Assembly: GCF_000384295.1 (NCBI RefSeq)
Contig: NZ_KB913037.1
Span: 1,345,975 to 1,409,974, forward strand
Length of the DNA: 64,000 nt
Direction of reading: 5' to 3'
Source: Amycolatopsis balhimycina FH 1894
GTDB taxonomy: Bacteria; Actinomycetota; Actinomycetes; Mycobacteriales; Pseudonocardiaceae
In this document: positions 19,219-48,938 of the stretch, piece by piece
Layout of the letters: each line of letters starts with the position of its first letter
Position numbering within the stretch: position 1 is the first letter of the stretch
The notes under the pieces: model-generated
Databases searched by the model: none
Seen by the model: only the letters and a program-made list of their open reading frames with translations
Told to the model about the DNA's origin: nothing
Made by a program: the position numbers and the translations under genes

Positions 19219-19327
19219 GCCGGACGCTCGCCGGTGCCTGTGTCGCCGGGGCGACGACGGGGTACCCGAAGTGTGTCGGCCGGCGGATCACCCGGCGGGA
19301 AAGGGGAGCCCGGACGGTGGTGTCTTC

Positions 19328-19949: not shown

Positions 19950-20684
19950 TCAGCCGGCTGCCGCCAGGTGACGACCGGCAGCGAGACGAGCCGCGGCACC
20001 GAACTCGCGGAACAGCGCGGTGGAGACCGGGTCCGCGCCCGCGTACCACTCCGGATGCCATTGCACGGCAAGGCAGAACGAGTCCGCCCTCGCCGACGCG
20101 GCCTCGACGACGCCGTCGGCGGACACCGCTTCCACGCGCAGGTCCGGCGCGAGGCGGTCGATGGCCTGGTGGTGCAGCGAGTTGACCGAGACGACCGAGG
20201 TGCCCAGCAGCCGCCGCAGCACCCCGCCGTCGCGGAGGCGGACCTCGTGGGCGGGCAGGTACTGCCGGTCCCTGGGCTGCGAAAGGTCCTCGCGGTGGTT
20301 GCCGTGGGGCAGGTCGCGCAGGGTGCCGCCGAAGGCGACGTTGAGCTCCTGCAGCCCCCGGCAGATGCCCAGCACCGGCAGCCTCGCCCGCACCGCGGCG
20401 GGCAGCACCCGCAGCGCGAGTTCGTCGCGGGCCGGGTCCGCCGGCGCGAGCCGGGGCGGACCGCCGTAGCGGGCGGGCTGCACGTCGGTCTGGTGACCGC
20501 CGAACACGATGCCGTCGAACCGGCCGAGCAGTTCCGCCAGGTACGGCGCGGGGCCGCCGACGACGGCCACCGCGCAGCCGGAAACCCGTTCCAGGGCCCG
20601 GACGTAGACCTCGCGCACCGCGACGTGCGACACCTCGTCGACCGGTTCGGCCGACGCGGCCAGTGCGACCAGCGGCCGGGTCAC
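19950..20684 (-). CDS. Class I glutamine amidotransferase, PuuD-like gamma-glutamyl hydrolase
   Basis: GTG 20684 overlaps the upstream stop (GTGA), giving 244 residues. The nucleophile elbow LGICRGLQELN holds the catalytic Cys, and LAVQWHPEWY near the end holds the His-Glu pair. PuuD-like members hydrolyse gamma-glutamyl amides such as gamma-glutamyl-GABA. It is the last gene of a four-gene minus-strand operon divergent from the carrier-protein operon. In butirosin biosynthesis a gamma-glutamyl group protects the GABA chain; removal of such a group would suit this enzyme if the pathway is similar, but that is inference. Confidence 0.82.
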   Translation of the reverse strand: MTRPLVALAASAEPVDEVSHVAVREVYVRALERVSGCAVAVVGGPAPYLAELLGRFDGIVFGGHQTDVQPARYGGPPRLAPADPARDELALRVLPAAVRARLPVLGICRGLQELNVAFGGTLRDLPHGNHREDLSQPRDRQYLPAHEVRLRDGGVLRRLLGTSVVSVNSLHHQAIDRLAPDLRVEAVSADGVVEAASARADSFCLAVQWHPEWYAGADPVSTALFREFGAAARLAAGRHLAAAG

Positions 20685-22018
20685 CGGGCACGCTCCAGCG
20701 CTTGGGCGAGGTCTTCGAGCAGGTCGTCCGGGTGTTCCAGGCCCAGCGACAGCCGGACCGAGCCCGGGGTCACGCCCGCCGCGAGCTGGTCGGCGACCGG
20801 CAGCTGGGCGTGCGTGGTGGACGCCGGGTGCGTGGCCAGCGACCGGACGTCGCCGATGTTGGTGACGTGCGAGAACAGGCGGAGGGCTTCGATGAACCGG
20901 CTGCCCGCCTCCTGCCCGCCGGTGAGCTCGAACTGCACCAGCGGGCCGCCGTTGCCGCCGAGGTAGCGCCGCAGCAGCTCCTCCTGCTCGCCGTCGGCCA
21001 GGCTCGGGTGGCTGACCGACGCCACCGACGGGTGCGCGGCGAGGAACCGCGCGACCGCGGCCGCGTTCTCCCCGTGCGCGCGCATCCGCAGCGGCAGCGT
21101 CTCGATGCCCTGGATGAGCAGGAAGGCGTTGAACGGGCTCAGGCACGTCCCGAGGTCGCGCACGAGCGTTTCCCGCGCCTTGAGCAGGTAAGGGCTGCGC
21201 CCCAGCGCGCTGTCGAGCCCGCCGCCGGCCTCGGTCCACACGACGCCGCCGTGCGCGGGGTCGGGTTCGGTGAGCAGCGGGTGCCGCGCGGCGTGGCGGG
21301 TCCAGTCGAAGGTGCCCGCGTCCACGATGAGCCCGCCCAGAGCGCTGCCGTGCCCGCCGATGTACTTCGTCGCCGAGTACACCAGGATGTCCGCGCCGAA
21401 CTCCAGGGGGCGGCAGACCATCGGGAGCAGCGTGTTGTCCAGCACCAGCGGCACTCCGGCCTCCCGCGCGAGCCCGGCGACGTCTTCGATGGGGAAGATG
21501 CGCAGCTTGGGGTTGGGCAGGGTTTCGCCGAAGTAGCAGCGGGTGCGGTCGTCGGTGGCGGCGGCGAAGTTCGCCGGTTTCTCCGGGCTGACGAACCGCG
21601 TCTCGATCCCGAACCGGGCGAAAGTGTTGGCCAGCAGGTTCCACGTGCCGCCGTAGAGCTCGTCGGAGCTGACGATGTTGTCCCCGGCCTGGCACAGGTT
21701 GAGCAGTGCCACGGTGGTCGCGGCCTGGCCGGAGGAGACGGCCAGCGCCGCGGGCGCGCCGTCGACCGCGGCGATCCGCGCTTCCAGGACGTCGCAGGTG
21801 GGGTTGTTGAGGCGGGTGTAGGCGTGCCCGTCCTCGCTGAGGTCGAAGATCCCCGCGGCGGCGCCGGTGTCCGGCAGCTCGTAGGCCGCGGTCTGGTAGA
21901 TCGGGGTGACCACCGGAGCGGTCGGGCCGGTGCGCAGCTCGGCCCCCGCGTGCATCACCGCCGACTCCGGCCGCCGGTATTTCTTCGGCTCGCTGGCGGG
22001 CCTGTCACCGACCGGCAT
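20681..22018 (-). CDS. Cys/Met-metabolism PLP enzyme (O-acetylhomoserine sulfhydrylase-like)
   Basis: The 445-residue protein belongs to the fold-type I Cys/Met metabolism family. The SSGQAATTVALL and LVLDNTLLP motifs are present, and SATKYIGGHG holds the PLP lysine (about residue 218). Family members perform gamma-replacement or gamma-elimination on O-acyl-homoserine and beta-elimination on other amino acids. Length and sequence fit O-acetylhomoserine aminocarboxypropyltransferase. The start overlaps the desaturase end by 14 bp, and the stop overlaps the amidotransferase start, so it is firmly part of this operon. A role in a dedicated pathway rather than housekeeping methionine synthesis is likely from that context. 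Confidence 0.85.
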   Translation of the reverse strand: MPVGDRPASEPKKYRRPESAVMHAGAELRTGPTAPVVTPIYQTAAYELPDTGAAAGIFDLSEDGHAYTRLNNPTCDVLEARIAAVDGAPAALAVSSGQAATTVALLNLCQAGDNIVSSDELYGGTWNLLANTFARFGIETRFVSPEKPANFAAATDDRTRCYFGETLPNPKLRIFPIEDVAGLAREAGVPLVLDNTLLPMVCRPLEFGADILVYSATKYIGGHGSALGGLIVDAGTFDWTRHAARHPLLTEPDPAHGGVVWTEAGGGLDSALGRSPYLLKARETLVRDLGTCLSPFNAFLLIQGIETLPLRMRAHGENAAAVARFLAAHPSVASVSHPSLADGEQEELLRRYLGGNGGPLVQFELTGGQEAGSRFIEALRLFSHVTNIGDVRSLATHPASTTHAQLPVADQLAAGVTPGSVRLSLGLEHPDDLLEDLAQALERAR

Positions 22019-23060
22019 GGGCGTGCTCCTTCGGTTCGGACATGGAGGTGACGATCGCGCCGACCGCGCTGGGCTGGCCCTGCGGCCCCCGGGTGAACAG
22101 CCCGCCCAGCACGGCGTCGACCGCGGCGTAGTCCGGATCGGCCAGCCGCACCCGCCTCGCCTTGCCGAGGTTCCAGAACGGTGTGCGCGGGTCCAGGTGG
22201 TGTTCCAGGTGGTAGTTGTCGTTGTGGATGCCGGTGAGGAACTTCTCCCAGCCGCGGCTCTTGCGGTTGCGCGTCATGTGCAGGTCCACCCGGGCGTCCC
22301 GGACGAGCGGGGTGTGCTCGGACAGCTCGATGTACCAGCCCAGGATCTGGAAGCTCGTCAGGTAGGGCACGAACCAGAACAGCAGCAGTTCGGCCGTCCA
22401 CCCCTGCGACCAGCACACGCCGGCGACGGCGGCCCAGAACACCCAGAACCCCGCGCGGTCGAACGCCCGCCTGGGGCCGTGGACCGCGGGTGCCTCCTGG
22501 CTGCGGCCTTCGCGCAGCACCCGGTACCGGTTGCGCACCAGGTACTTCAGGTAGGCCCAGGTCTGGGTGCCGAACAGCGGCATCAGCACCACCCGGCGGA
22601 CGTACGCCCGCGGCGAGGCGGCCCGGTAGGCACCCTGTTCGATGAAGAACCGCAGGTCCGGGTCGCGGTCCGGGTCGCCCAGCCGCGGGTGGTGGGTGAA
22701 CACGTGCGAGATCTTGTACGCGTAGTGCTGCTGGAAGATCGGGTACGCCGTGAGCACGGTGCCGAGCAGCATCCGCACCCGGTGGTCGGCCGCGCCGACG
22801 CCGTGGGCGCAGTCGTGCAGGATCGTGGACAGCCCCCGCTGCCGGGCGCCGATGACCAGCACCGCGAGCGGGTAGCACCACCACGAAACGGCGACGCACA
22901 ACCACACGCAGGCCGCGATCCAGGCGACGTCCTCCAGCCACGCGAGCCCGGCGTGCCAGTTGTCGCTGCGGTTGAGGCGTTTCATCCGGGCCCGCACTTC
23001 CGTGGGGAAGCGGTGCGTCCGGTAGCGCTTCCCGTCGTAGGCCCACTCGGTGTCCGACAC
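22005..23060 (-). CDS. Membrane di-iron fatty-acid-desaturase-like enzyme
   Basis: The 351-residue protein has the three histidine boxes of membrane di-iron desaturases and hydroxylases: HDCAH (82-86), HVFTHH (119-124) and HLEHH (about 296-300), with hydrophobic segments near residues 42-75, 95-115 and 205-245. The family uses O2 to desaturate or hydroxylate an acyl chain or a carrier-bound acyl or amino acid. It lies 19 bp after the aldo/keto reductase and overlaps the PLP enzyme. In a cluster full of acyl carrier proteins, a protein-bound acyl substrate is plausible, but a free lipid cannot be excluded. Confidence 0.82.
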   Translation of the reverse strand: MSDTEWAYDGKRYRTHRFPTEVRARMKRLNRSDNWHAGLAWLEDVAWIAACVWLCVAVSWWCYPLAVLVIGARQRGLSTILHDCAHGVGAADHRVRMLLGTVLTAYPIFQQHYAYKISHVFTHHPRLGDPDRDPDLRFFIEQGAYRAASPRAYVRRVVLMPLFGTQTWAYLKYLVRNRYRVLREGRSQEAPAVHGPRRAFDRAGFWVFWAAVAGVCWSQGWTAELLLFWFVPYLTSFQILGWYIELSEHTPLVRDARVDLHMTRNRKSRGWEKFLTGIHNDNYHLEHHLDPRTPFWNLGKARRVRLADPDYAAVDAVLGGLFTRGPQGQPSAVGAIVTSMSEPKEHAHAGR

Positions 23061-23079
23061 GGTTCTCCCTGGGTCGAGG

Positions 23080-24081
23080 TCAGACGAGGGCGGTCAGCGG
23101 CACGCCGATGAACGTCGGGTCGAAGCGGCTGACGCCGTCGAGCAGCTCGTCGATCTTGGTCATGACGGCGGAGTCGAGCACGACGTCGGCGGCCTTGACG
23201 TTGTCGGAGACCTGCTCGGGGCGCGAAGCGCCGGTGATCGCGGTGGCGACGTTGGGGTTCTGCAGCACCCAGGCGATGGCCAGCTGCGCCATGGTCAGGC
23301 CGAGCTGGCCGGCGATCGGGCGCAGCTCCTGCACCTTGCGCAGCACGTCGTCCTGCAGCCAGCGGACCATGTAGCCGCTGCCCTCGCCGTCGGTGGCGCG
23401 GGAGCCGGCCGGGGGCTGCTCGCCGGGCAGGTACTTGCCGGTGAGCACGCCCTGGGCCACCGGCGACCAGACGAGCTGGCCCATGCCCTCGCGCTCGCAG
23501 GCCGGCACGACCTGGGCCTCGATGACCCGCCACAGCATCGAGTACTGCGTCTGGCTGGCGATCAGCGGGACGCGCAGCTCGCGGGCCAGTGCGGCGGCGC
23601 GGGTGATCTGCTCGGCGGTCCACTCCGAGACGCCGACGTAGAGGATCTTGCCCTGCCGCACCAGGTCGGCGAAGGCCAGCATGGTCTCCTCCAGCTCGAC
23701 CGTGGGGTCGAACTGGTGGGCCTGGTAGAGGTCGAGGTAGTCGGTCCCGAGCCGGCGCAGGGAGCCGTGCGCGGACTCCATGATGTGCTTGCGGCCGAGG
23801 CCCTGGTCGTTGGGGCCGCCGGGGCCGGTCGGCCAGTACACCTTGGTGCAGATCTCCAGGCTCTCCCGGCGGTGACCCGACAGCGCGCGCCCCAGCACCT
23901 CCTCGGCCCGGGTGTTGGCGTACATGTCGGCGGTGTCGAACGTGGTGATCCCGGCGTCGAGTGCCGCTTCCACGCATTTCCTGGCTTGTTCCTCGGCCAC
24001 CTGGGACCCGTGGGTGATCCAGTTGCCGTAGGAAATCTTGCTCACTGAGAGGCCGCTGCGGCCCAGTCGACGATGTTCCAT
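23080..24081 (-). CDS. Aldo/keto reductase (Kv-beta-like)
   Basis: The 333-residue TIM-barrel oxidoreductase has the AKR pattern FDTADMYANTRAEEVLGRAL (catalytic Asp/Tyr), GLGRKHIMESAHGSLRRL (Lys region) and a C-terminal NADP site around ITGASRPEQVSDNVKA. It resembles the voltage-gated potassium channel beta-subunit-like AKRs, which reduce aldehydes and ketones with NADPH. It is the first gene of the minus-strand operon and shares a 224-bp divergent promoter gap with the 14-gene plus-strand operon. An aldehyde made by the ProA-like enzyme next door is a possible substrate (inference). Confidence 0.88.
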   Translation of the reverse strand: MEHRRLGRSGLSVSKISYGNWITHGSQVAEEQARKCVEAALDAGITTFDTADMYANTRAEEVLGRALSGHRRESLEICTKVYWPTGPGGPNDQGLGRKHIMESAHGSLRRLGTDYLDLYQAHQFDPTVELEETMLAFADLVRQGKILYVGVSEWTAEQITRAAALARELRVPLIASQTQYSMLWRVIEAQVVPACEREGMGQLVWSPVAQGVLTGKYLPGEQPPAGSRATDGEGSGYMVRWLQDDVLRKVQELRPIAGQLGLTMAQLAIAWVLQNPNVATAITGASRPEQVSDNVKAADVVLDSAVMTKIDELLDGVSRFDPTFIGVPLTALV

Positions 24082-24305
24082 GCCTTACGACACTCCAAGG
24101 AATTTCCGGCACAGTCAACGTTTAGAACCGGGGAACAAGGTGCCGCCGATGCGGTCATAGAAAATCTTTATGAGGCCATCAGCCGGGCTGTTCTCCGCCT
24201 TGCCCCGGCGATTTCCCGATGGCAGCGTGGGGCATCTGTCGGGGGAATCACCGGAATCGCCGCGGAGTCGCCGCGGCTGGAATCCGGTTCGAGGTCGGGA
24301 GAACA
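24082..24305. promoter_or_regulatory. Divergent promoter gap between the two cluster operons
   Basis: This 224-bp gap separates the AKR and ProA-like starts and must hold promoters for both directions. It is less GC-rich than its flanks, with GGAATTTCC at 24100-24108 and an A/T-rich stretch around 24165-24180 (TAGAAAATCTTTATGAG). I could not assign -35/-10 boxes with confidence. The LysR regulator at the far end of the cluster is the obvious candidate to act here. Confidence 0.5.
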
Positions 24306-25571
24306 ATGGTCGACAAGATGATCGGCGCCGCCCGTGCGGCGACCGTGGCGGCACCGCCGCTGGGCAACGAGGCATACGAGCGTTTCTGCACCGGGCTGGC
24401 CCGCCGGCTGACGACGGAGTGGCCGCGGATCTGCGCGGCGAACGACGTCGACGTCGGCCGGGCAAGGGAGGCGGGACTGCCCGCCGTGCTCGTCGACCGG
24501 CTCCGGCTGACCGACGACCACCTAGCCGATCTGGTGACCCTTACGTCGACGGTCGCCGGGGAGATGCGGGAGCTGACCCGCCGCCCGCCGGGCACCCCGA
24601 TCGGCGACTGGGGGGTGCGCCACCGCGTGCCGCGGCCGCTGGGCGTGGTGCTGATGATCTTCGAGGCCCGCCCGACCGTCACCGTCGAAGGCGCGCTGCT
24701 CAACGCGGCGGCCGGGAACGCGGTGATCCTGCGTGGTGGCAAGGAGATCGCGCGGACGAACGCCGCGCTCGGCGCCGCCGTCACCGCCGCACTGGCGGAC
24801 GCGGGGCTGCCCGCGGGCCTGGTCACCGTGCTGGACGACCCCAGCCGCTCGCTGCTGCGGGACCTGCTTCGCCGTCCCGACGCGATCGACGTGCTCATCC
24901 CCCGCGGGAGCCCGTCCCTGATCGACTACTGCCACCGCGCGAGCACCATCCCGGTGCTGGCCAGCGGCGGCGGGGTCAACCACCTCTACGTGCACCGCAG
25001 TGCCGAGCTCGCCCAGGCGGTCGCGATCGCGCTGGACAGCAAGCTGCCCGCCCCGGCCGGGTGCACCTCGCTGGAGATCGCGCTGGTCGACCGGCCGGTG
25101 GCCGACGAGTTCGTGGCGGCACTGCTCGACGGTGCCCGCCAAGACGGCAGGCCGCTGACCATCCGGGTCGGCGAGGGGCTCCGGCAGCCGGAAACCACCG
25201 GGCAGTGGCGGGTGGAGGCACTGGCCGAGCACGACCTGGGCCGGGAGTTCCTCGACAGCACCGTCGGCGTGGTGGCCGTGGACTCCCCGGACGAAGCCGT
25301 GGAGTTCATCCAGCGGCACGGCTCCGGGCACAGCGAGGCGATCGCCGCCACCGACCCGGTGGTCACCGGCGAGTTCACCGACCGGGTGGACGCGGCCACC
25401 ATCGTGATCAACGGTTCCCTGCGGCTCAACGACGGGCCCACGCTGGAGCTGGGCTCGGAGATCGCGATCAGCACCAGCAGGCTGCACGCCCGCGGGCCGA
25501 TCACCCTGGCCGCGCTGGTGAACTACTGCTGGGTGATCGAGGCCAACGGCCGGCTGCGCGAGGCGAGCTGA
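24306..25571 (+). CDS. ProA-like glutamate-5-semialdehyde dehydrogenase homologue
   Basis: ATG 24306, behind GGGAGA, gives 421 residues, normal for ProA. The NADP-binding region (GAVLLNAAAGNAVILRGG-like) and the active-site cysteine (Cys253 in PAPAGCTSLE, aligned with the PGVCNA motif of ProA) are present. Housekeeping ProA reduces gamma-glutamyl phosphate with NADPH and is normally encoded near the kinase ProB. There is no ProB here; instead this gene opens an operon of carrier proteins, ligases and an acyltransferase. It may reduce a carrier-bound or phosphorylated acyl group to an aldehyde. It is a pathway copy rather than the proline enzyme, judged by context only. Confidence 0.85.
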   Translation: MVDKMIGAARAATVAAPPLGNEAYERFCTGLARRLTTEWPRICAANDVDVGRAREAGLPAVLVDRLRLTDDHLADLVTLTSTVAGEMRELTRRPPGTPIGDWGVRHRVPRPLGVVLMIFEARPTVTVEGALLNAAAGNAVILRGGKEIARTNAALGAAVTAALADAGLPAGLVTVLDDPSRSLLRDLLRRPDAIDVLIPRGSPSLIDYCHRASTIPVLASGGGVNHLYVHRSAELAQAVAIALDSKLPAPAGCTSLEIALVDRPVADEFVAALLDGARQDGRPLTIRVGEGLRQPETTGQWRVEALAEHDLGREFLDSTVGVVAVDSPDEAVEFIQRHGSGHSEAIAATDPVVTGEFTDRVDAATIVINGSLRLNDGPTLELGSEIAISTSRLHARGPITLAALVNYCWVIEANGRLREAS

Positions 25572-26326
25572 TGGCGGCCCCGGCGACGGCTCCGGCGACG
25601 CGGCCGCCGCTGCTGCTCCCGCTCAGCCGGCGGCCGCAGGCCCCGCAAGCGGTGCTGGTGCACCCCGGCGGGGGCGGCCTGAGCCCGTACACCCCGCTGG
25701 CCGTGCGGCTGGGCCGGCGGCACGGCGTGAGCGGGATCCGCGCCGGCGGCCTGTTCGCCGGTGAGCGGCCCGACGACGACGTCGAGGTGATGGCCGAGCG
25801 GTACCTGCCGCTGCTGGACACGCTGCCCCGCCGTCCGGAACTGCTGGTCGGCTGGTCGATGGGCGGAGTGCTCGCCTGGGAGCTCGGCGCGCGGCTCGCC
25901 GCGACCGGCCCGGCCCCGGCCGTGGTGATGATCGACAGCTTCACCCGCCGGGACGAGTTCGGCACCACGGCGCGGCGGGACGCGGTCATCGAGCGGATCA
26001 TGCGGTCGGTGCACGCCAGGGTCGCCCCCCGCGACCAGCGCTGGGCCGAGGCCACCGCCCACGCCCACGTCACCGCGTCGGGCCGGCATCAGGTGACCAG
26101 CACCCACCCGGGCCCCGCGCTGCTGATGGCCTGCGCGAGCCCGCACCGCCGCACCCAGGTCGAGAACTGGACCCGGCTGTCCGGGCGGCTGCGGGTCCGC
26201 GAACTGGACTGCGGCCACTTCGACGTGTTCGGCCGGAAAGCGCTTCCGGCCGTGCTGGCCCACCTCGACGAGTTCCTGACCGGAAACCGAAACCGATCCA
26301 CGAAATGCCTTGGAGGGCAACGATGA
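25571..26326 (+). CDS. Type II thioesterase (alpha/beta hydrolase)
   Basis: The 251-residue protein is a stand-alone thioesterase of the NRPS/PKS editing class. It has an oxyanion region in LVHPGGGGLSPYTPLA, the nucleophile Ser96 in GWSMGG and a late histidine in ELDCGHFDVFG. Such enzymes clear misacylated phosphopantetheine arms or release the product. Its ATG shares one base with the preceding stop (TGATG), so it is translationally coupled. Its presence supports real thioester chemistry on the carrier proteins of this operon. Confidence 0.82.
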   Translation: MAAPATAPATRPPLLLPLSRRPQAPQAVLVHPGGGGLSPYTPLAVRLGRRHGVSGIRAGGLFAGERPDDDVEVMAERYLPLLDTLPRRPELLVGWSMGGVLAWELGARLAATGPAPAVVMIDSFTRRDEFGTTARRDAVIERIMRSVHARVAPRDQRWAEATAHAHVTASGRHQVTSTHPGPALLMACASPHRRTQVENWTRLSGRLRVRELDCGHFDVFGRKALPAVLAHLDEFLTGNRNRSTKCLGGQR

Positions 26327-26610
26327 CGACCGGACCAGACCACACGGCGGTCTCCGAATCCGTCAAGCGCGTGGTGATCGCCGAATCCCGGCTTTCCCTC
26401 GCGCCGGAGGAGATCCCCGACAACGAGCCGCTCAACGGCGACCTGCTGCGCATCAACTCGCTGGGTTTCGTCGGCATGCTCGTGCACCTGGAGGACGCAC
26501 TCGACGTGACCCTGCCCGACGACCTGTTCGTCGGCCGCACGTTCAAGACGGTCGACGACCTCGTCGAAGTCGTCGCCGAAGGCGCCCGCGAGACGACGGA
26601 GGAGCCGTGA
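26323..26610 (+). CDS. Free carrier protein with variant NSL motif
   Basis: ATG 26323, behind GGAGGG and overlapping the previous stop (ATGA), gives 95 residues with the four-helix carrier-protein pattern. The attachment serine is Ser46 in LLRINSLGFVGML, where the usual DSL reads NSL; the following helix (VHLEDALDVTLPDD) is typical. The serine is kept, so phosphopantetheinylation is expected. It lies between the thioesterase and the TrpB-like gene, and is one of three carrier domains in the operon. Confidence 0.8.
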   Translation: MTTGPDHTAVSESVKRVVIAESRLSLAPEEIPDNEPLNGDLLRINSLGFVGMLVHLEDALDVTLPDDLFVGRTFKTVDDLVEVVAEGARETTEEP

Positions 26611-30557: not shown

Positions 30558-31824
30558 GCGTCACCCGGCGCTCGCGGAACTGCCCGGCGAACTCGCCGGG
30601 ATGCCCACCCCCGCCTACGTCTACGACCTGGCCGAGGTCCGCCGCAACCACCGGCGTCTCGACAGTGCCCTGCCCGACGGCACCGGGCTGCTGTACTCGC
30701 TGAAGGCCAACCCGCACCCGGACGTGCTGAGCACGCTGCGCGCAGCCGGTGCCCGCCCGGAGGTCTGCTCCTCCGGCGAGCTGCGGGCCGCGCTCGAAGC
30801 CGGCTGGACGGGCGCGCAGGTGCTCTACACCGGACCGGCGAAGCGGGACGCCGAAATCGAGTGCGCGCTGCGGGCCGGGGTGCGGGAGTTCTCCGTGGAC
30901 TCCCCGCACGCCGTCGCCCAGCTCGACCGGCTCGCCGGCGAGGCCGGGGTCCGCGCTCGCTACCTGCTGCGCGTCAACGACGACCAGCCGGTGCCGGGCC
31001 AGGGCCTGGCGATGACCGGGGTGCCCTCGCAGTTCGGCGCCGACACCGGCTGGATCCTCGCCGAGCCCGCCCGCTTCGCCGGGGGCGAGCACGCCGAGGC
31101 GTCCGGGCTGCACCTGTACATGGGCACCAACCTCACCGCCGTCGACGACCTGCTCGGGCAGTTCCGCCGCGCGCTGGGCACCGCCGCGCGGCTGCGGGAA
31201 GCCCTGGCACCGCACGGGGTCCGCTTCCGGACCCTCGACCTCGGCGGCGGTTTCGGCGCCCCGTTCGCGAAGGACGGCACCGCGATCGAACTGCCCGGCC
31301 TGTGTGAAGGGCTCGAAGCGCTGCTCGGCGAGGAACTGCCGGGCTGGCGCGAGCAGGGCCCGGAGGTGGTGTTCGAGTCCGGCCGGTACCTGGTCGGCAC
31401 GGCGGGCACCCTCGTCACGGCGGTGCTGGACGTCAAACGCTCGCACGACAAGGACATCGTGGTGCTGGAGTCCGGCATCAACCACCTCGGCGGCATGTCG
31501 GGGATGCGGCGGCTGCCCCCGCTCGCGCCCCGCCTGCTCGGCCCGGCCGGCCCGGACGTGCTCGACGCGCTCGTCGCCGGTCCGCTGTGCACGCCGCTGG
31601 ACACCTGGACCCGCGGCGCCCGGCTGCCCGAGCTGAACCCCGGCGACCTGGTCGCGGTGCCGAACGTCGGCGCCTACGGGCTCTGCGCCAGCCTCGTCGC
31701 CTTCCTGGGCCACCCCCTGCCGGCGGAGGTCGTCGTCGACGGCGACCGCCCCGGCGCCCCCGCGCGGACCTCGCGCGTGGAACTGGTCAGGACCACTGAC
31801 CCCGCTTCGGCGGACCGAGTATGA
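30541..31824 (+). CDS. BtrK-like PLP decarboxylase (fold type III)
   Basis: GTG 30541 gives 427 residues; the start overlaps the ligase by 17 bp. It is an alanine-racemase-fold decarboxylase with the PLP lysine Lys55 in LYSLKANPHP, the phosphate-binding region TLDLGGGFGAPF and FESGRYLVGTAG, and the substrate cysteine motif GPLCTPLD. The LysA-like subfamily includes BtrK, which decarboxylates glutamate while it is bound to the carrier protein BtrI. The very next gene is a small ACP, the same pairing as in butirosin. Decarboxylation of a carrier-bound glutamate or related amino acid is therefore the preferred reading; free diaminopimelate or ornithine are alternatives. Confidence 0.82.
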   Translation: MELLDERHPALAELPGELAGMPTPAYVYDLAEVRRNHRRLDSALPDGTGLLYSLKANPHPDVLSTLRAAGARPEVCSSGELRAALEAGWTGAQVLYTGPAKRDAEIECALRAGVREFSVDSPHAVAQLDRLAGEAGVRARYLLRVNDDQPVPGQGLAMTGVPSQFGADTGWILAEPARFAGGEHAEASGLHLYMGTNLTAVDDLLGQFRRALGTAARLREALAPHGVRFRTLDLGGGFGAPFAKDGTAIELPGLCEGLEALLGEELPGWREQGPEVVFESGRYLVGTAGTLVTAVLDVKRSHDKDIVVLESGINHLGGMSGMRRLPPLAPRLLGPAGPDVLDALVAGPLCTPLDTWTRGARLPELNPGDLVAVPNVGAYGLCASLVAFLGHPLPAEVVVDGDRPGAPARTSRVELVRTTDPASADRV

Positions 31825-31835
31825 GGAGCGAAAAA

Positions 31836-32087
31836 ATGGACCCCCGCATGGCCGAACTGCTCACCCCCTACCTCAAGTTCCTCAACGGCCGAGAGCTCGG
31901 CCCGGACGACTCGCTGCGCGAGCGCGGGCTGGACTCGATGCAGTCGATCAACGTCCTGTTCGAGATCGAGGACGTCTTCGGCGTCTCCCTGCCGGACGAG
32001 GACATCACCGACGCCACCTTCGCCACCGGCGCCACCCTGTGGAACGCGGTGCACGCCCAGCTGGAGCGCCAGGAGGTCTCGTCATGA
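31836..32087 (+). CDS. Free acyl carrier protein
   Basis: ATG 31836, behind GAGGAG, gives 83 residues. The phosphopantetheine serine is Ser34 in RGLDSMQSINVLFEIEDVFG, a canonical DSM motif. It lies between the decarboxylase and the first acyl-CoA-dehydrogenase-like gene, whose ATG overlaps its stop. It is the natural candidate to carry the amino acid through both steps, analogous to BtrI. Confidence 0.9.
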   Translation: MDPRMAELLTPYLKFLNGRELGPDDSLRERGLDSMQSINVLFEIEDVFGVSLPDEDITDATFATGATLWNAVHAQLERQEVSS

Positions 32088-33235
32088 CCACCGCCCCGCT
32101 CGCCGAACTCGTCGGGCGCGTGACCAAGGTCGCCGAGGAGCACGTCCGCCAGGCCGACGACGACGCCGCGTTCCCGGTGCAGGCGCTCGACGAGCTGCGT
32201 GCCACCGGCCTGCTCGGGCTGCTCGTCCCCGCCGAGGACGGCGGGCTCGGCGGCTCGCTGGCCGACGTCCTCGAGACCAGCACCGAGCTGGGCCGGGTCG
32301 ACATGTCCCTGGCGATGATCTTCGCCATGCACTGCCAGCAGGTCGCGGCCGTGCTCGCGCACGCCGAAGGCAGGTTGCGCGCGGAACTGCTGCCCGAGAT
32401 CGCCGCGGGCCGGCTCTACCTCGGCTCGGTCACCACCGAGGCGGGCAAGGGCGGGCACCTGCTGACCGCCGAGTCCGCCGCGGCCTGGAGCGAAGGCGAA
32501 CTGCTCGTCGACCGCTTCGCCCCGATCGTCACCGGGGGCCGGCACGCGGACGGGTTCCTCATCACGATGCGCGCCCCGGACGCGGAAGCGGACAACCAGG
32601 TGTCGCTGGTCTACGCCGCCCGCGGGCAGCTGGAGATCGAGCCGGCCGGCGGCTGGAACCCGCTGGGCATGCGGGCCAGCGACAGCGGGGCCTTGAAGCT
32701 GCGCGGGCGGCTGCCCGCGCACCAGGTCGTCGGGCGCCACGGTGACTTCCACACGATCGTCACGACCGTGTTCGGCCCGCTGGCCCACCTCGGCTGGGCG
32801 TCCTGCTGGCTGGGCACGGCGGCCGGCGCGCTGTCCCGGGTGATCACCTCCTTGCGCGGCAGCCGCGGCAAGACGGACCTGAACTCGGAGCTGCTGCTGA
32901 CGCGGCTGTCGCGGTCGCGCCAGCGGCTGGACACCGTGCACGCGCTGATCGGGCACGCCCGCCAGGTGGTCGAGACCACCGCGGACCTCAGCGCGCCCAA
33001 GGTGCAGCTGCTGATCAACGCCGTGAAGATCACCGCGGCCGAGGAGTGCTACCGCGCCGTCGACGAGCTGGTCGACGCCGTCGGGATGCGCCACGGCTAC
33101 CTGCGCGACTCGCCCACGCGGCTCGAGCAGGCGCTGCGGGACCTGCGCTCGGCGGTGCTGAACTACAGCAACGACCGGCTGCACCTCGCCGACGGCCGGT
33201 TGGCCCTGCTCGACCGGGAGGTGCGTTTTGCCTGA
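32084..33235 (+). CDS. Acyl-CoA-dehydrogenase-fold flavoprotein 1
   Basis: The 383-residue protein has the acyl-CoA dehydrogenase layout: an N-terminal helical domain (FPVQALDELRATGLLGLLVPAEDGGLGGSLADV), a central beta domain (YLGSVTTEAGKGG, then WNPLGMRASDSGALKL) and a C-terminal helical domain. In carrier-protein pathways such enzymes oxidise the alpha-beta bond of a tethered acyl group, as in pyrrole formation from prolyl-carrier. Some fold members are instead monooxygenases fed by a flavin reductase, which this operon also has. It overlaps both neighbours, and the next gene is a second member of the fold, so a heteromer or two consecutive oxidations are possible. Confidence 0.84.
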   Translation: MTTAPLAELVGRVTKVAEEHVRQADDDAAFPVQALDELRATGLLGLLVPAEDGGLGGSLADVLETSTELGRVDMSLAMIFAMHCQQVAAVLAHAEGRLRAELLPEIAAGRLYLGSVTTEAGKGGHLLTAESAAAWSEGELLVDRFAPIVTGGRHADGFLITMRAPDAEADNQVSLVYAARGQLEIEPAGGWNPLGMRASDSGALKLRGRLPAHQVVGRHGDFHTIVTTVFGPLAHLGWASCWLGTAAGALSRVITSLRGSRGKTDLNSELLLTRLSRSRQRLDTVHALIGHARQVVETTADLSAPKVQLLINAVKITAAEECYRAVDELVDAVGMRHGYLRDSPTRLEQALRDLRSAVLNYSNDRLHLADGRLALLDREVRFA

Positions 33236-34307
33236 GTCAGCGGTCCTGTCCACTGTGGATTCTTCCGCGGGCGGCGGCCGGGTGTGGCAACAGCTCGGCT
33301 CGGCCGGCGTGCTACGGGAGCAGTACCGGCGGCGCACGCCCGCGGGGCTGATCGCCGACCCGGACCGGCTGGGCGCCACGCTGCGCGCGGTCGACGCCCG
33401 GGCGGACAACGGGATCACGCTGAGCGTGCTGGTGCAGTCGGCGAGCGCGCTGCCGATCCTGGCCACCGCGACGGGGCCGGCGTTCGACCGGGTCGTCGCC
33501 GGCGAGTGCGAGGTCGCGCTGGCCGCGACGGACGCCGCGGCGGCCGGGTCGGACCTCACCGGGCTGGGCACGGAGGTCGAGATCGACGAGGACTCCGTCC
33601 GGCTCGAGGGCGCGAAGCGGTGGGTGACGACGGCGACCCGCGCGGCGTACTTCCTGGTGCTGGCCCGCCACCGGCCGGGACGGCACTTCACGGCGTTCAC
33701 GTGGGTCCTGGTCCCGGCGGACGCGGCGGGGGTCCGGGTCTCACCCGCGACGACCACGTTGCTCGCGGGAGCGGGCATCGGGCACGTCGAGTTCTCCGGG
33801 GTCCGGCTGCCCGCCTCGGCCGTCGTCGGCCGGCCGGGCCGCGGGCTGGCCCTGTTCGCCCGGCACATGGGCACCGAACGGCTCGCCGGCGCCCAGTGGG
33901 CGACGGCGCTCACGAGCCGGGTGCTGGAGCGGACGAGAACAGAGCTGACCCGGCGCGAGATCGACGGGCGCGCGCTGTGGGACCACGATTCGGTCCGCCA
34001 GGAGTTCGCGGGCTGCCTGGTGCGGGTACGCGAACTGCGAGCGCTGTACGAAGCACTGGGCGAACGGGTCGTGGAGGAACACGACCTGACGAGCGCGGCG
34101 ATGTTGAAGGCCGCGGTCGGCCTCACGGCGGACGAGGTGCTGTCCCGCTGCGCGAAGTGGCAGGGCGCGAACGGTTTCGCCGACGACGGCCTGCAGCTGG
34201 AACGCGCGGAGGCGGCGGTGTTCGGCATCGGCGGCGGCGTGACGGAGCTGATGCTCGGCGCGGTCGCCGACGGCGCCGAGACGGTGCTGAAGGAACTGCG
34301 CGCATGA
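33228..34307 (+). CDS. Acyl-CoA-dehydrogenase-fold flavoprotein 2 (TTG start)
   Basis: TTG 33228, seven bases after GGGAGG, gives 359 residues, overlapping the preceding gene by 8 bp. The fold is recognisable from LEGAKRWVTTATRAAYFLVLAR, HVEFSGVRLPASAVVGRPGRGL, and the C-terminal QGANGFADDGLQLERAEAAVFG helix. It is a diverged partner of the previous gene, not a recent duplicate. Pairs like this can form heteromers in which only one subunit keeps the full active site. I cannot say which residue would be the base here. Confidence 0.8.
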   Translation: MPESAVLSTVDSSAGGGRVWQQLGSAGVLREQYRRRTPAGLIADPDRLGATLRAVDARADNGITLSVLVQSASALPILATATGPAFDRVVAGECEVALAATDAAAAGSDLTGLGTEVEIDEDSVRLEGAKRWVTTATRAAYFLVLARHRPGRHFTAFTWVLVPADAAGVRVSPATTTLLAGAGIGHVEFSGVRLPASAVVGRPGRGLALFARHMGTERLAGAQWATALTSRVLERTRTELTRREIDGRALWDHDSVRQEFAGCLVRVRELRALYEALGERVVEEHDLTSAAMLKAAVGLTADEVLSRCAKWQGANGFADDGLQLERAEAAVFGIGGGVTELMLGAVADGAETVLKELRA

Positions 34308-35005
34308 ACCCCCCGAGCTCCGTCCCGAAAGCGCCACTTTCACGGGAAAGTGGCGCGGGGGGCGGTCTCCCGGAGATGACCGTCGACGGCACCGAAGTCG
34401 CCCCCGGCGTCTGGGTCGCGTCGGCCACTCGCGCCGACTTCGGCGATCCACCCGCCCTCGCCGACGATCTCGCCGACGCCCGCACCCGGCCGGGCTGGCG
34501 CCGACCGGAGTTCCTCGCCGGCCGGTACCTTCTCCGGCGCCTGCTGCGGCGGGTGCGTCCCAGCCTGGCCGCGCTGCCCGTCCGGACCGACCCGGCCGGG
34601 AAACCGCGGCTGGACCCCGGCGGCACGCCGGACCTCGCGCTGCCCGGCATCACGATCTCCCACGACGGGGACCGGATCGCCGTGGCGGTGTGCGCGCACG
34701 GGGACGTGGGCGTCGACGTCCAGCTGCCGCCTGAACAACTGACCGACGCGGCCGTGCGCCGGTGCCTCGGTGAGCATGCTCCGGAGGTCGCCGCGCTGCC
34801 GCGTGCCCGGCGGGCTTGGGAGTTCGCCTGGGTGTGGTCCGTGCAGGAGGCGTGCGTCAAGGCCGCCGGCACGGGCCTGGCCGGGCGGCCCTGGTCGATC
34901 GACGTCCCGCCCGGCGCGGTGTCCGGGCGCTGGGGCCGGTTCGCGTGGCTGAGCCTGCGAACCCGGTCACCCGTGCCGCTCAGCTGCGCCTTCCCCCACC
35001 GATGA
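34304..35005 (+). CDS. Sfp-type phosphopantetheinyl transferase
   Basis: From ATG 34304, coupled to the preceding stop (ATGA), the protein has 233 residues. An ATG at 34376 would give 209 and would leave out an intergenic-type hairpin at 34331-34356 that otherwise falls inside the coding sequence. The magnesium and CoA-binding motifs are GDVGVDVQ and [17 protein letters not shown]. It converts apo carrier proteins to their holo form, and its place in the operon implies that the three carrier domains here are its clients, giving the pathway its own activating enzyme. Confidence 0.86.
34331..34356. repeat. Dispersed-type hairpin at the start of the PPTase gene
   Basis: Ten-base-pair arms (GCGCCACTTT and AAAGTGGCGC) with a CACGGG loop. 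The look is that of intergenic repeats of this genome, yet it lies inside the longest frame of the PPTase gene, which supports the later start at 34376. Confidence 0.55.
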
Positions 35006-35022
35006 TCCCCACGGAGGCCGAC

Positions 35023-35952
35023 ATGCACCTCATCAACGCCCCGGACGTAGTCCCGGAACTCAGCTGCTACACCACCAACCTGGTGGCCTACCTCGAAACC
35101 GACGAACCCGGCGCGAAGACCCGCTTCGCGCACGCCGTGCGCCTCGCAGTCCTCGACGGCGGCTCCGCGGACCTGGTCTTCTCCCAGCACACCCGCATCG
35201 ACGGCGGGACCGCGCACGACCCGCTCGGCTACCGCGGCGCGGCGAACTGGACGACGGCCGCCGCCGGTCTCGACGCCGAACTCGCCCGCTCGGGGCGGGT
35301 GCTGACCGTCGCCGACACCTTCCACCTGCCCTGGTCCCCCGCGCACGAGACCGCGCACTCGCCGCACTGGCTGCTGCTGCTCGACCGGCGCGACGAACAG
35401 TGGCTGGTAGCCGACCACTTCAGCGCGCTGACCCCGCTCGGCGCGCAGGAACCCTTCCTCGGCTGGCTGAACGAGGCCGCGCTGGAGCGCGCGCTGACCC
35501 CGCACGCCCCGTGGCCGGCGGAGATCGCCAACCGCGACCGCCACGCGCTGGGCGCCGCCGTGGAGCCGGTGCACGCGGAGGAGTTCCGCTGGCTGGCGCG
35601 CACCACCGGCGAAGTCCCGGCCACCCCGGGCGACTGGATCTGCGGCCTGCCCGAGGTGCTCGGACGCGTCAGCGACGTGCTGGCCGAGGACGAGACCGCC
35701 GCGGCCCGCTACGGCGACGACCTGTGGGCGGCGAGCAGGCACTACACCTACCGCCTCGGCGTGCTCGCCGCGAACGGCGAGATCTGCGCGGAGGACGCCG
35801 CCGCGGCCGCCGTCTGCTGGGGCGAGCTGCCCAAGGTCGTCCGGTTCGCCGCCGAGTCCGCCGCCCGCGGCAGGCCACGGGCCGGACTGCTGAAACGGAC
35901 CTTCGACGACCTGCTGCACGCCAGCGAAAAGACGACCACCGAGGAGGCTTGA
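35023..35952 (+). CDS. BtrH-like acyltransferase without carrier domain
   Basis: ATG 35023, behind GGAGG, gives 309 residues. It shares with the 27952 product an early cysteine (Cys15 in ELSCYTTNL; CxxxNL is common to both), the HLPWxPxHxxxHxxH motif (101-115) and an Asp131 in VADHFSA, but it has no carrier domain; its C-terminal half is a helical region. The conserved Cys-His-Asp pattern suggests a papain-like acyltransferase of the BtrH type. Two such paralogues imply either two transfer steps or a catalytic and a recognition partner. The family call is an inference from motifs and cluster content. Confidence 0.55.
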
Positions 35953-35957
35953 GCACG

Positions 35958-37475
35958 ATGAAAACCCTGTACCAGTGGTTCGCCGCGTCGGCCGCGGAGC
36001 ACGCCGACGCCCCGGCGCTCGAAGTCGGCGCGCGCACCCTGACCTACGCCGAACTGCGGGATCTCGCCGGGCACATCGCGGCCGAGGCCGTCGACGCGCT
36101 GGGGGCCGTGCCCGCCCGGATCGGCGTGCTGGCCGAACGCAGCGTCCTCACCTACGCCGGCTACCTCGCCGCGCAACGGCTCGGCAGCACCGTCGTGCCG
36201 CTCAACCCCGCCTTCCCCACCGAGCGCAACCGCATGATCGCCGAGGCCGCCGGCCTGGACCTGCTCCTCACCGAAGACGCCCGCGCCGGCCTCGGCGTGC
36301 CCGAACTGGTGATGGCCGAACCCGGGGACGGCTCCCCGCGCACACCGCCGGAGTCCCGGACCGGGGACCTGGCCTACATCCTGTTCACGTCGGGCTCGAC
36401 CGGGCAGCCCAAGGGCGTGCCGATCCGGCACCGCAACGTCTGCGCCTACCTCGGCCACGTCGTGCCGCGGTACGGCATGGCGCCGGGCAGCCGCGTCTCC
36501 CAGACCTTCGACCTGACCTTCGACCTGTCGGTGTTCGACATGTTCACCGCCTGGGCCGGTGGCGCGACGCTCGTCGTCCCCAGCCGTGAGGACCTGCTCG
36601 CGCCGGTGCGGTTCGTCGCGGAGAAGCAGCTCACCCACTGGTTCGCCGTGCCGTCGATGGTGTCGTACGCCCAGCGCCTGCGCAGCCTGCGGCCCGGCAG
36701 CATGCCTTCGCTGCGCTGGAGCCTGTTCTGCGGTGAACCGCTGACGACGCAGCAGGCCGAGGCCTGGCAGCGCGCCGCCCCCGGCGGTGTCGTGGAGAAC
36801 CTCTACGGCCCCACGGAACTGACCATCAGCTGCGCGGAGTTCCGGCTGCCTGCCGATCCGGCGGACTGGCCGGTCACCGCGAACGGGACCGTGCCGATCG
36901 GCCGGCTCTACCCCAGTGTCAACCACATCGTGCTCAACGAGCAGGGGCGGCCCGCCGTCGAAGGAGAACTCTGCGCGCGCGGGCCCCAGCGGTTCCCCGG
37001 CTACCTCGACCCGGCCGCCAACGAAGGCCGCTTCTACCACTTCGGCCCGGGCGACGAGACAGCGCGGCCGCACGGCCCGGACGACGAACTCGACGACGAC
37101 GCCTGGTACCGCACCGGGGACCGAGTGTCCTGGCAGGACGGTTCACTCGTCCACATGGGACGGTCGGACCAGCAGGTGAAGGTCCAGGGCTACCGCGTGG
37201 AGCTCGGCGAGATCGAGGCCGTGCTGCGGGACCAGGAGGCGGTGCGGGACGCGATCGTGCTCGCCCTGCCCGGCAGCGGCGGCACCACCGAGCTCGAAGC
37301 GGTGTGCACGGGCCAGGGCCTCGACCCCGACGAGTTGCTCGCCGCCGTCGCCGGCCGGCTGCCCGGGTACATGGTGCCCCGCCGGCTCAGCGTGCTGGAC
37401 ACGCTGCCGCTCAACGTCAACGGCAAGATCGACCGCTCGGCCCTCACCGCGGAAGCGATCGGGCAGCGCGGATGA
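35958..37475 (+). CDS. Stand-alone amino acid adenylation domain
   Basis: ATG 35958, behind GGAGG, gives 505 residues. Core motifs are canonical: A3 [17 protein letters not shown]4/A5 [13 protein letters not shown] and [13 protein letters not shown]7 WYRTGDRV, A8 [15 protein letters not shown] and A10 [12 protein letters not shown]. There is no attached carrier or condensation domain, so it loads a free carrier in trans. The [13 protein letters not shown] segment resembles prolyl-AMP ligases that work with acyl-CoA-dehydrogenase-like oxidases in pyrrole formation, but the substrate is not proven. It is the second ligase of the operon, so two different acids are probably loaded. Confidence 0.9.
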
Positions 37476-37501
37476 CCACCACACCCCCGGAAGGGAAGAG
37501 C

Positions 37502-38092
37502 ATGGGAACCGCACACGTCACCCAGCCGCCACTCCGCACCGCGTGCTTGCCCGCGGAAAGCCAGGCGGCGCAAGGAAATCCGGTCGGGGAGGCTTCGGCG
37601 CAGGGCCCACCGGACCCGGGACTGGTGCCCACGGAAGGGTTCTGCCGGGCGATCGCGAAGCTGCCGACCGGAGTCACGGTGCTGACCACCGTCACCGACG
37701 ACGCTCCCGTGGGGTGCACGGCCAACGCGGTGATGTCACTGTCGGCCGACACCCCGAGCGTGCTGGTGTCGCTGGGCAGCCACAGCCGGACCCTCGCGGC
37801 CATCCTCGACGCCGGGCGATTCGCCGTCAACACCCTGTCCTGGTCGCAGCGGGCGCTGACCCGCAAGTTCGCCACCGGCACCCCGGCCGAACGGTTCGCC
37901 GGGGTGCCGTGGCGGGCCGAGCGCCGGACTCCGGTGCTGTCCGCCGCGGGCATGGCGCTGGTCTGCGAGGTGGGTGACACCGCGACCCTGCTGGACCACA
38001 CCGTGGTCGTCGGCAAGGTGGTCTGGCTGCGGGACACGAACGCGGCGCCGACGGTGCTCTACGGACGAGAGCAGTACCCGCTCGGCGCCTGA
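37502..38092 (+). CDS. Flavin reductase-like protein
   Basis: ATG 37502, behind GGAAGGG, gives 196 residues; another ATG at 37472 overlaps the previous stop. The flavin reductase domain begins near residue 50 (FCRAIAKLPTGVTVLTTVTDD), with GCTANAVMSLSADTPSVLVSL forming the FMN-binding core and DHTVVVGKVV near the end. It supplies reduced flavin to a monooxygenase. The only candidate partners in the operon are the two acyl-CoA-dehydrogenase-fold proteins, so at least one of them may be an oxygenase. It is the last gene of the operon, ended by a strong hairpin. Confidence 0.87.
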   Translation: MGTAHVTQPPLRTACLPAESQAAQGNPVGEASAQGPPDPGLVPTEGFCRAIAKLPTGVTVLTTVTDDAPVGCTANAVMSLSADTPSVLVSLGSHSRTLAAILDAGRFAVNTLSWSQRALTRKFATGTPAERFAGVPWRAERRTPVLSAAGMALVCEVGDTATLLDHTVVVGKVVWLRDTNAAPTVLYGREQYPLGA

Positions 38093-38104
38093 CGGTCCGT
38101 GGCA

Positions 38105-38163
38105 AACGCCGTGAAGGCCACCTTGAGGAACTTCAAGTTCCTCAAGGTGGCCTTCACGGCGTT
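38105..38163. terminator. Perfect 29-bp inverted repeat, bidirectional terminator
   Basis: Arms 38105-38133 and 38135-38163 are exact reverse complements around one unpaired base. The element fills the 75-bp gap between the convergent flavin reductase and LysR genes. Its length and perfection suggest a mobile or recently copied intergenic repeat as well as a terminator. Confidence 0.8.
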
Positions 38164-40637: not shown

Positions 40638-40679
40638 CTCCTCGGAGTCGGCACACCTCGACGTTACTAGCAAAGCCGT

Positions 40680-48639: not shown

Positions 48640-48643
48640 GCCC

Positions 48644-48898: not shown

Positions 48899-48938
48899 GC
48901 TTCCTCCAGGGGGTTCTCGATCCAAGCCGTGGGTCACG

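Follow-up and report, generated by a model that had tools for sequence, protein, structure and literature searches.

An Amycolatopsis gene cluster that may combine a carrier-protein pathway, a glutamate-less TrpB2-like enzyme and a rhizobitoxine-type enol-ether cassette

The described systems closest to the locus analysed here are the rhizobitoxine genes, of the kind that makes enol-ether amino acids active on plants, and several pathways in which amino acids are processed on carrier proteins. The C-terminal part of RtxA has been assigned as dihydrorhizobitoxine synthase and RtxC as a desaturase (PMC3222319), and a seven-gene operon whose first four genes are homologous to rtxACD has been published as a putative rhizobitoxine gene set (PMC5789663). 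On the carrier side, Asp is converted to a beta-alanyl-carrier, and the unit desaturated by a protein of the acyl-CoA dehydrogenase (ACAD) family, in bolagladin biosynthesis (PMC7756342); AFC-BC11 is a further precedent for the conversion of Asp to beta-alanyl-carrier (PMC12186527), the beta-aminoacyl group on a carrier is coupled by VinM with Ala, Ser or Gly (PMC11284099), and ChmG, which with ChmH forms the N-oxygenase and dehydrogenase pair of the chalkophomycin pathway, is an ACAD shown to N-oxygenate a carrier-bound amine (PMC10849742). Here we describe a locus of the soil bacterium Amycolatopsis balhimycina FH 1894 in which counterparts of both kinds of genes stand next to one another. 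It lies in a stretch of 64,000 nucleotides (contig NZ_KB913037.1, positions 1,345,975 to 1,409,974 of the forward strand), called the window below. The locus is a mosaic in which two of three modules, a carrier core and an enol-ether cassette, have known counterparts and the third, containing a TrpB2-like enzyme, an acyl carrier protein (ACPa) and a ProA homologue, contributes one unusual TrpB step; that the three together form one cluster for a small amino-acid antimetabolite strikes us as an evenly balanced proposition.

Protein families were assigned by profile scans (Pfam, NCBIfam/TIGR) with their cut-offs, and all coordinates are positions in the window. The initial annotation had placed fourteen plus-strand and four minus-strand genes here in two divergent, coupled operons, and all eighteen were found at the coordinates it had claimed. 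The plus operon runs in the order ProA, thioesterase, ACPa, TrpB, BtrH1-ACPc, VinN-like, VinO-like, ACPb, ACAD1, ACAD2, phosphopantetheinyl transferase, BtrH2, VinM-like and flavin reductase, with neighbours overlapping or separated by short gaps; the minus operon diverges from the ProA side and consists of an aldo-keto reductase (AKR), a desaturase, an O-acetylhomoserine-sulfhydrylase (OAHS)-like enzyme and a PuuD-like enzyme. The features are as follows (PLP, pyridoxal phosphate; ORF, open reading frame):

19271..19942, plus strand: YczE-family membrane protein (NCBIfam NF052291 237 bits, cut-off 205)
19950..20684, minus strand: PuuD-like Peptidase_C26 amidohydrolase (GICRG motif; PF07722 186 bits)
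20681..22018, minus strand: OAHS-like PLP enzyme, RtxA C-terminal-domain type (TIGR01326 507.6 bits, cut-off 495.1; SATKY motif)
22005..23060, minus strand: membrane di-iron desaturase, RtxC type (His boxes HDCAH, HVFTHH, HLEHH; PF00487 120 bits)
23080..24081, minus strand: AKR (PF00248 253 bits)
24082..24305, no strand: divergent intergenic region of about 224 bp, with the ProA start chosen at 24306
24306..25571, plus strand: ProA homologue (Cys in PAGCTSLE; NF001221 338 bits, cut-off 289, for the ORF from 24219)
25571..26326, plus strand: thioesterase (PF00975 62.6 bits)
26323..26610, plus strand: carrier protein ACPa (PF00550 28.7 bits for the ORF from 26305)
26610..27962, plus strand: TrpB2-like PLP enzyme (NF009057 507 bits, cut-off 366; VTGTGAGQWG)
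27952..29058, plus strand: BtrH1, BtrH-family transacylase with C-terminal carrier ACPc (profile match to BtrH2; ACPc PF00550 19.8 bits, just below cut-off)
29055..30557, plus strand: VinN-type adenylating enzyme (best PDB match 3wvn, 385 bits; SFDYG, ECKR)
30541..31824, plus strand: VinO/BtrK-type PLP decarboxylase (PF02784 115 bits; best PDB matches BtrK 2j66 and 7ru7)
31836..32087, plus strand: carrier protein ACPb (PF00550 34.9 bits for the ORF from 31821)
32084..33235, plus strand: ACAD1, flavoprotein of ACAD fold that lacks the usual catalytic Glu (nearest by sequence DszC/TdsC)
33228..34307, plus strand: ACAD2 (PF02770, PF00441; Glu kept in TERLAG)
34304..35005, plus strand: 4'-phosphopantetheinyl transferase (PF01648 28.2 bits, cut-off 25)
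35002..35952, plus strand: BtrH2, BtrH-family transacylase (Cys22/His122/Asp138)
35958..37475, plus strand: VinM-type adenylating enzyme (best PDB match 8k4r, 318 bits)
37502..38092, plus strand: flavin reductase (PF01613 115 bits)
38168..39094, minus strand: LysR regulator (PF00126, PF03466)
39628..40700, minus strand: AzlD and AzlC amino-acid transporter pair (PF05437, PF03591)

The locus is kept as a unit within the genus. BtrH2 served as the query against 80 Amycolatopsis genomes, against 390 from the bacterial family (as a profile) and against a class-wide draw of 394 that included its own. It matched in 13 of the 80 genus genomes, nine of them (own included) at 79% identity or more and four at 36-40%, in 37 of the 390 family genomes (four of these matches are weak) and in 3 of the 394, again with its own; a BtrH2 pattern search across genome contigs gave 43 pattern matches and no true relatives. 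Gene order and orientation of all 18 genes and of YczE, LysR and AzlCD are retained in all eight close relatives fetched, so that the co-conservation on which the initial annotation had staked its claim is borne out; counting its own genome, 9 of 80 Amycolatopsis genomes carry the full syntenic set. What lies outside is not retained in these relatives (neither a LuxR gene upstream nor the downstream TetR and MPAB genes), and the unit therefore spans about 19271-40700, or about 22 genes. With a threshold of E ≤ 1e-40, relatives of the desaturase turn up in 29 of 390 family genomes, and its nine copies of at least 89% identity within the genus are all in the nine genomes with a close BtrH2. Both A. 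rifamycinica and A. vancoresmycina carry the same locus, and BtrH2-related proteins at 77-88% with a named host are from Amycolatopsis.

Relatives were collected as non-redundant sets (110, 77, 73, 68, 45 and 43 loci or proteins, depending on the question) and viewed to about 10-20 kb on each side, so genes farther away are missed; many of these loci are related to one another and the counts are not independent events. Motif and co-occurrence counts leave out the window itself, G153, G156, and G244, G248, G142 and G143, the last four having no ACAD1 within the stretch (G153 has the full carrier core). Among 110 ACAD1 loci, 77 also have BtrH1 and 33 do not. The core (VinN-, VinO- and VinM-like proteins, one carrier, an ACAD pair and a pair of BtrH-family transacylases) recurs with varying completeness in these 77 loci and marks a family of uncharacterised clusters.

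The first steps on the carrier may be read from the families of the core proteins. SFDYG at 199 and ECKR at 300 of the VinN-type enzyme align to the chain of 3wvn, which we take to be VinN, and the Asp of SxDxG and the ECKR pair are shared; 68 of 73 VinN relatives have ECKR and the other five EAKR. This enzyme is predicted to activate the beta-carboxylate of Asp. The recognition residues of VinN are named in the bolagladin paper as Asp230 and Ser299/Arg331 (PMC7756342), and in a model of AfcQ the counterpart of Arg331 turns the Asp beta-carboxylate toward the active site (PMC12186527). A prolyl-carrier (pyrrole) pathway was considered and set aside, as the first ligase is nearest VinN and a proline ligase ranks lower. 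ACPb is presumed to be the partner of the VinN-type and VinO-type enzymes and of ACAD1, and the second ligase, whose best match 8k4r is presumably VinM, would be of the amide-forming type. The initial annotation's label of two proteins as BtrH-like was doubtful by sequence, but the fold comparison of BtrH2 and a profile comparison uphold it: BtrH2 has the Cys-His-Asp required of BtrH-family transacylases, Cys13/His111/Asp126 of BtrH1 align to its Cys22/His122/Asp138 (profile match), and its predicted fold is common to AziU3, a protein from the aziridine antibiotic azinomycin that ties with the amide-forming CtaG and CcbD.

The surroundings of the core differ from locus to locus. Glutamate mutase genes lie beside it in L158 (scanned) and by eye in G166, and a KamA-family gene in L175 (scanned, below cut-off) and by eye in G623 and G212, so the beta-amino acid may vary between loci while ACAD1 stays. 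In other loci (L013, G150, G353, G219, G158, G623, G153 and others) the core is joined to a nonribosomal peptide synthetase protein of condensation-adenylation-thiolation type (scanned in L013) and a thioesterase, often with a short-chain dehydrogenase/reductase (absent in G158 and G153), a major facilitator superfamily (MFS) transporter and a CGNR-type regulator, and in L014, G006, L183 and L184 a core without TrpB and ProA has an EctA-like acetyltransferase nearby.

ACAD1 is probably an FADH2-dependent N-oxygenase, to judge by its family, with the flavin reductase as its presumed partner, and ACAD2 probably a dehydrogenase. By sequence ACAD1 is most like DszC/TdsC and more weakly like KijD3, and it has no Glu at either of the two places (aligned by eye) where ACADs keep the catalytic one; none of the 110 ACAD1 relatives has Glu at the second place, and at the first it is likewise missing in the 99 of them whose motif was printed. 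ACAD2, for its part, retains its Glu, as do 68 of 68 relatives. Two of the 33 ACAD1 loci without BtrH1 were read for their surroundings. In L153 (S. hirsutus), where the ACAD is 65% identical to ACAD1, diaminopropionate genes of SbnA and SbnB type score above cut-off, and a molybdopterin oxidoreductase and an A domain are also present; L165 (S. anandii) is similar in its surroundings, with an ACAD of 63% identity, a molybdopterin oxidoreductase, an O-methyltransferase and an aminotransferase of class III, and no SbnA/SbnB genes were seen there. AlnG of the alanosine pathway, 89% identical to an S. hirsutus protein, is proposed to N-hydroxylate carrier-bound diaminopropionate (PMC7347517); that S. 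hirsutus protein may be the ACAD of L153. No SbnA or SbnB equivalog scores above cut-off in the window cluster.

The TrpB-like enzyme, ACPa and ProA travel together. Among the 77 loci with ACAD1 and BtrH1, TrpB and ProA are both present in 38, TrpB without ProA in 5, ProA without TrpB in none and neither in 34; the corresponding numbers for ProA and ACPa are 38 with both, none with ProA only, 2 with ACPa only and 37 with neither. Two of the five TrpB-only loci (G002 and G012) have ArgC and a class III aminotransferase (the G002 ArgC is above cut-off), and for another, L193, the contig is cut short; class III aminotransferase genes are also near ProA/TrpB in L181, G231, G235, G383 and L197. The TrpB2-like enzyme of the window (TIGR01415 419 bits, below the cut-off of 519) has Gly instead of the catalytic Glu at the ETGAGQ position, and in 45 relatives this place is held by Gly (35), Ala (6) or Ser (4) and never by Glu, which is kept in two solved TrpB2 chains that were aligned and in three paralogues of the same genome. 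The ProA homologue (TIGR00407 298 bits, below the cut-off of 317, for the ORF from 24219; a 31% paralogue is present elsewhere in the genome) has kept its catalytic Cys, as have 40 of 40 relatives, and would probably carry out reductive release of a glutamyl-type thioester. The aldehyde release that the initial annotation had thought possible fits this Cys, and the loading, decarboxylation, oxidation and transfer that it had foreseen fit the VinN-, VinO-, ACAD- and BtrH-type genes.

On the minus strand, the desaturase, OAHS-like and PuuD-like genes look like a rhizobitoxine-type enol-ether vinylglycine cassette, given their families and grouping. The OAHS-like gene adjoins the RtxC-type desaturase with its three His boxes, the OAHS-like enzyme carries the PLP-lysine motif and the PuuD-like enzyme the nucleophile motif. 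Three rhizobial/Paraburkholderia loci group the same three genes (44-52% identity for the desaturase, 49-54% for the OAHS-like and 36-41% for the PuuD-like protein), and the one in P. phymatum STM815 is apparently the seven-gene operon mentioned above. The OAHS-like enzyme would probably perform a gamma-substitution that gives an O-alkyl-homoserine, the PuuD-like enzyme would probably remove a gamma-glutamyl or similar N-acyl group, and the AKR would probably reduce an aldehyde to an alcohol. No serinol-forming aminotransferase (the N-terminal part of RtxA) is among the 18 proteins scanned, and the locus is therefore not classed as a rhizobitoxine cluster. A reading of the desaturase as an enzyme of arginine gamma-hydroxylation (enduracididine) was rejected, since the GntB model scores 323 bits, below its cut-off of 380, and the rhizobial loci fit better.

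Six further desaturase loci (L233-L238) were read. In L233, L234, L236 and L238 a PLP decarboxylase, of Orn/Lys/DAP fold in the two that were scanned (L233 and L238), is followed by desaturase, OAHS and PuuD in turn, whereas in the window the AKR occupies the decarboxylase place; the partner of the enol ether thus seems to be supplied by interchangeable genes. Near the L233 decarboxylase is a protein with an MFS-like N-terminal part (below cut-offs) and a C-terminal part that scores 410 against homoserine O-acetyltransferase model NF001209 (cut-off 331) and below cut-off against TIGR01392, which fits O-acetylhomoserine as co-substrate. L235 has the order desaturase, OAHS, PuuD, YczE, its YczE being 80% identical to that of the window, and the YczE membrane protein probably belongs to the enol-ether module; L237 has only the desaturase of the cassette genes. 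The compact sets of L233, L234, L236 and L238 (genomes G155, G153, G150 and G157) also contain methyltransferase-like, MFS-like/MetX-like and GNAT-like genes, the last two kinds scanned in L233 and otherwise assigned by eye. They are candidate vinylglycine clusters, possibly of the aminoethoxyvinylglycine (AVG) type; the open-access literature search turned up no AVG gene cluster.

These modules suggest the following pathway, built on the gene content, its conservation, module co-occurrence, motifs and one predicted fold each of BtrH2 and ACAD1, which are what the analysis shows. The VinN-type enzyme would load L-Asp on ACPb via its beta-carboxylate and the VinO/BtrK-type enzyme would decarboxylate it to beta-alanyl-ACPb; ACAD1 and the flavin reductase would N-oxygenate the beta-amine, and ACAD2 would dehydrogenate the unit to the level of an oxime or enamine. 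Aminoacyl groups might be placed and removed, or an acyl group shifted, by the VinM-type enzyme together with the pair of BtrH-family transacylases. The Glu-less TrpB2-like enzyme could then couple the aminoacrylate formed from serine with the carrier-bound unit at its acidic alpha-carbon; in the resulting 4-substituted 5-glutamyl thioester, C5 would be reduced by ProA to the semialdehyde and by the AKR to the alcohol. Coupling of this alcohol with O-acyl-homoserine by the OAHS-like enzyme and formation of the C3-C4 double bond by the desaturase would yield an enol ether of the rhizobitoxine/AVG type, from which PuuD would strip a protecting group before export by AzlCD/YczE. The AzlCD pair is, by family, a possible exporter; L181 (Saccharothrix coeruleofusca) has an AzlCD 70% identical to it next to a cluster of ProA, TrpB and core in which enol-ether genes were not seen. 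Asp loading, decarboxylation, N-oxygenation and enol-ether formation in this scheme follow from protein families; the coupling partner of TrpB, the order of the TrpB-ACPa-ProA and enol-ether steps and the final structure we infer ourselves. If TrpB makes a glutamyl-5-thioester, this would account for the recruitment of ProA and ArgC, two reductases of glutamyl C5 that are unrelated to each other. As a specific chemical proposal (C-C bond formation between serine and a carrier-held acyl group to 4-substituted glutamyl thioesters, their reduction by ProA or ArgC to semialdehydes and, here, joining of the alcohol to homoserine as an enol ether) it is tentative and, taken whole, distinctly unlikely; if true, the product would be a doubly armed amino-acid antimetabolite.

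Several observations weigh against a single pathway of this kind. The enol-ether cassette is found without an adjacent carrier core in L233-L236 and L238, and the OAHS gene is absent near 35 of 43 TrpB loci, so the junction of cassette and core may be loose. The coupling partner of TrpB is a guess, and the enzyme could act on a free small molecule. In the fold list obtained with the ACAD1 model (pLDDT 83) DszC is first, with ordinary ACADs nearly tied and KijD3 29th, so that the fold does not discriminate between reactions, and ACAD2 is missing in 5 of 43 TrpB loci and hence not essential to the TrpB step. Finally, the residue after TN is Thr in the window's VinN-type enzyme and Ser (taken as Ser299) in 3wvn, so an amino acid other than Asp may be loaded.

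The two operons are divergent neighbours, but do they make one product? They might be independent clusters, an AVG- or rhizobitoxine-like cassette on the minus strand and a separate carrier pathway on the plus strand, each with its own product. The cassettes without core and the TrpB loci without OAHS speak for this, as do three of these cassette genomes, G150, G153 and G219, which have a core cluster on another contig. On the other hand, the operons are adjacent, divergent and syntenic in all nine genus genomes with a close BtrH2 (at least 79%) or desaturase (at least 89%), an AKR stands at the cassette's head instead of the decarboxylase, and the minus operon by itself has no decarboxylase or aminotransferase for an amino alcohol (although the AKR could still reduce an aldehyde of primary metabolism). 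We regard two separate clusters as rather unlikely.

A second alternative concerns the fate of the N-oxidised unit. N-hydroxylation, O-acylation by VinM/BtrH and ring closure could form an aziridine on ACPb, in the manner assumed for azicemicin, which ProA and the AKR would convert to an aziridinyl alcohol in the place of serinol, the product being an aziridine analogue of rhizobitoxine. Two type II ketosynthases and an O-methyltransferase adjoin the core in G227; a polyketide cyclase, an acyltransferase and an O-methyltransferase do so in G218, and G214b (L149) has a related methyltransferase. Together with a BtrH2-related protein (P0089) whose source calls it 'putative azicU10', these neighbours point to azicemicin, and the BtrH2 fold of AziU3 agrees with an aziridine. 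The azicemicin cluster has been studied for the origin of its aziridine (PMC4384478). However, AziU3 ties with CtaG and CcbD, azicemicin was compared by its described gene content, and TrpB is left without a role. The open-access literature searched had nothing on topic linking aziridines with an ACAD or TrpB. An aziridine is in our estimation unlikely.

A third possibility gives TrpB a different partner: the N-oxidised beta-alanyl unit would close to isoxazolin-5-one, and TrpB would attach its carbon 4 to serine, with ProA and the minus operon acting elsewhere. TAN-950, a Streptomyces product, is beta-(isoxazolin-5-one-4-yl)alanine (PMC9293202) and has the skeleton so predicted, which oxime closure of the TrpB intermediate would also yield, and the loss of the TrpB Glu recalls TmTrpB E105G, a variant used with phenols (PMC12909874). 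But ProA and ACPa, which travel with TrpB, are not needed by a free isoxazolinone, and no TAN-950 gene cluster was found in the open-access literature search; we consider this route improbable. A butirosin-like pathway, in which ACAD1 would place a hydroxyl on carbon 2 of an aminoacyl-beta-alanyl carrier and the isoserine dipeptide would be moved to an amine by BtrH, accounts for the BtrK-like decarboxylase and BtrH-family proteins, but it is very improbable, as no ATP-grasp ligase or luciferase-like monooxygenase is among the genes scanned and the L153 ACAD, a close relative, belongs to a diaminopropionate cluster for which N-oxidation is expected.

Elsewhere in the window, minus-strand genes at 48169-52985 (polyketide cyclase, carrier, cupin, FAD hydroxylase and O-methyltransferase) are possibly part of a type II polyketide synthase (PKS) cluster of the spore-pigment kind, and GH127, CBM2 and GH43 genes at 4868-10164 probably serve plant polysaccharide degradation. 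No ketosynthase is among the locus proteins scanned, hence there is no type II PKS or PKS partner in the cluster itself.

The cluster, read as one pathway of three modules, unites three questions: N-oxidation of a beta-alanyl-carrier (compare the azicemicin aziridine), the nucleophile of a Glu-less TrpB, and the source of the alkoxy group in actinomycete enol-ether vinylglycines such as AVG. The initial annotation knew of no named pathway with this combination. Its parts do have named counterparts, namely a rhizobitoxine-type cassette and vicenistatin/bolagladin-like loading; the whole matches no characterised cluster in the open-access literature searched, where none combining BtrH, VinN and TrpB-like enzymes was found.

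How, then, does the locus compare with known systems? With the rhizobitoxine (rtxACD) and enol-ether vinylglycine operons it shares an adjacent OAHS-like synthase, RtxC-type desaturase and PuuD-like gene (36-54% identity); it differs in having an AKR instead of the serinol-forming aminotransferase and a divergent carrier operon alongside. Vicenistatin/fluvirucin loading (VinN, VinL, VinO, VinM) has the same VinN-type ligase with ECKR, decarboxylase, carrier and VinM-type ligase, but here the PKS is lacking and two ACADs and two BtrH-family proteins are extra. The azicemicin cluster reportedly has two adenylating enzymes, a decarboxylase, an extra ACP and oxygenases; by this gene list, and compared by description only, the two agree, whereas the locus has no PKS and has TrpB, ProA and the enol-ether cassette in addition. 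The alanosine (aln/ala) pathway likewise has an ACAD proposed for N-hydroxylation (the protein 65% identical to ACAD1 is that of the SbnA/SbnB cluster L153, not AlnG itself), but its diaminopropionate and nitrosation genes have no counterparts here. In chalkophomycin biosynthesis two ACADs, ChmG and ChmH, also act as N-oxygenase and dehydrogenase on a carrier-bound amino acid, although there the substrate is proline and the product a pyrrole (PMC10849742). Butirosin biosynthesis (BtrI/BtrK/BtrH) shares the BtrK-like decarboxylase and the BtrH-family transacylases, without a BtrJ-type ATP-grasp ligase or BtrO-type monooxygenase in our locus. Finally, the TrpB2-like enzyme is homologous to TrpB2 tryptophan synthases over the whole protein, above the cut-off of one model, and differs from them by Gly in place of the catalytic Glu, with Gly, Ala or Ser there in 45 of 45 cluster relatives.

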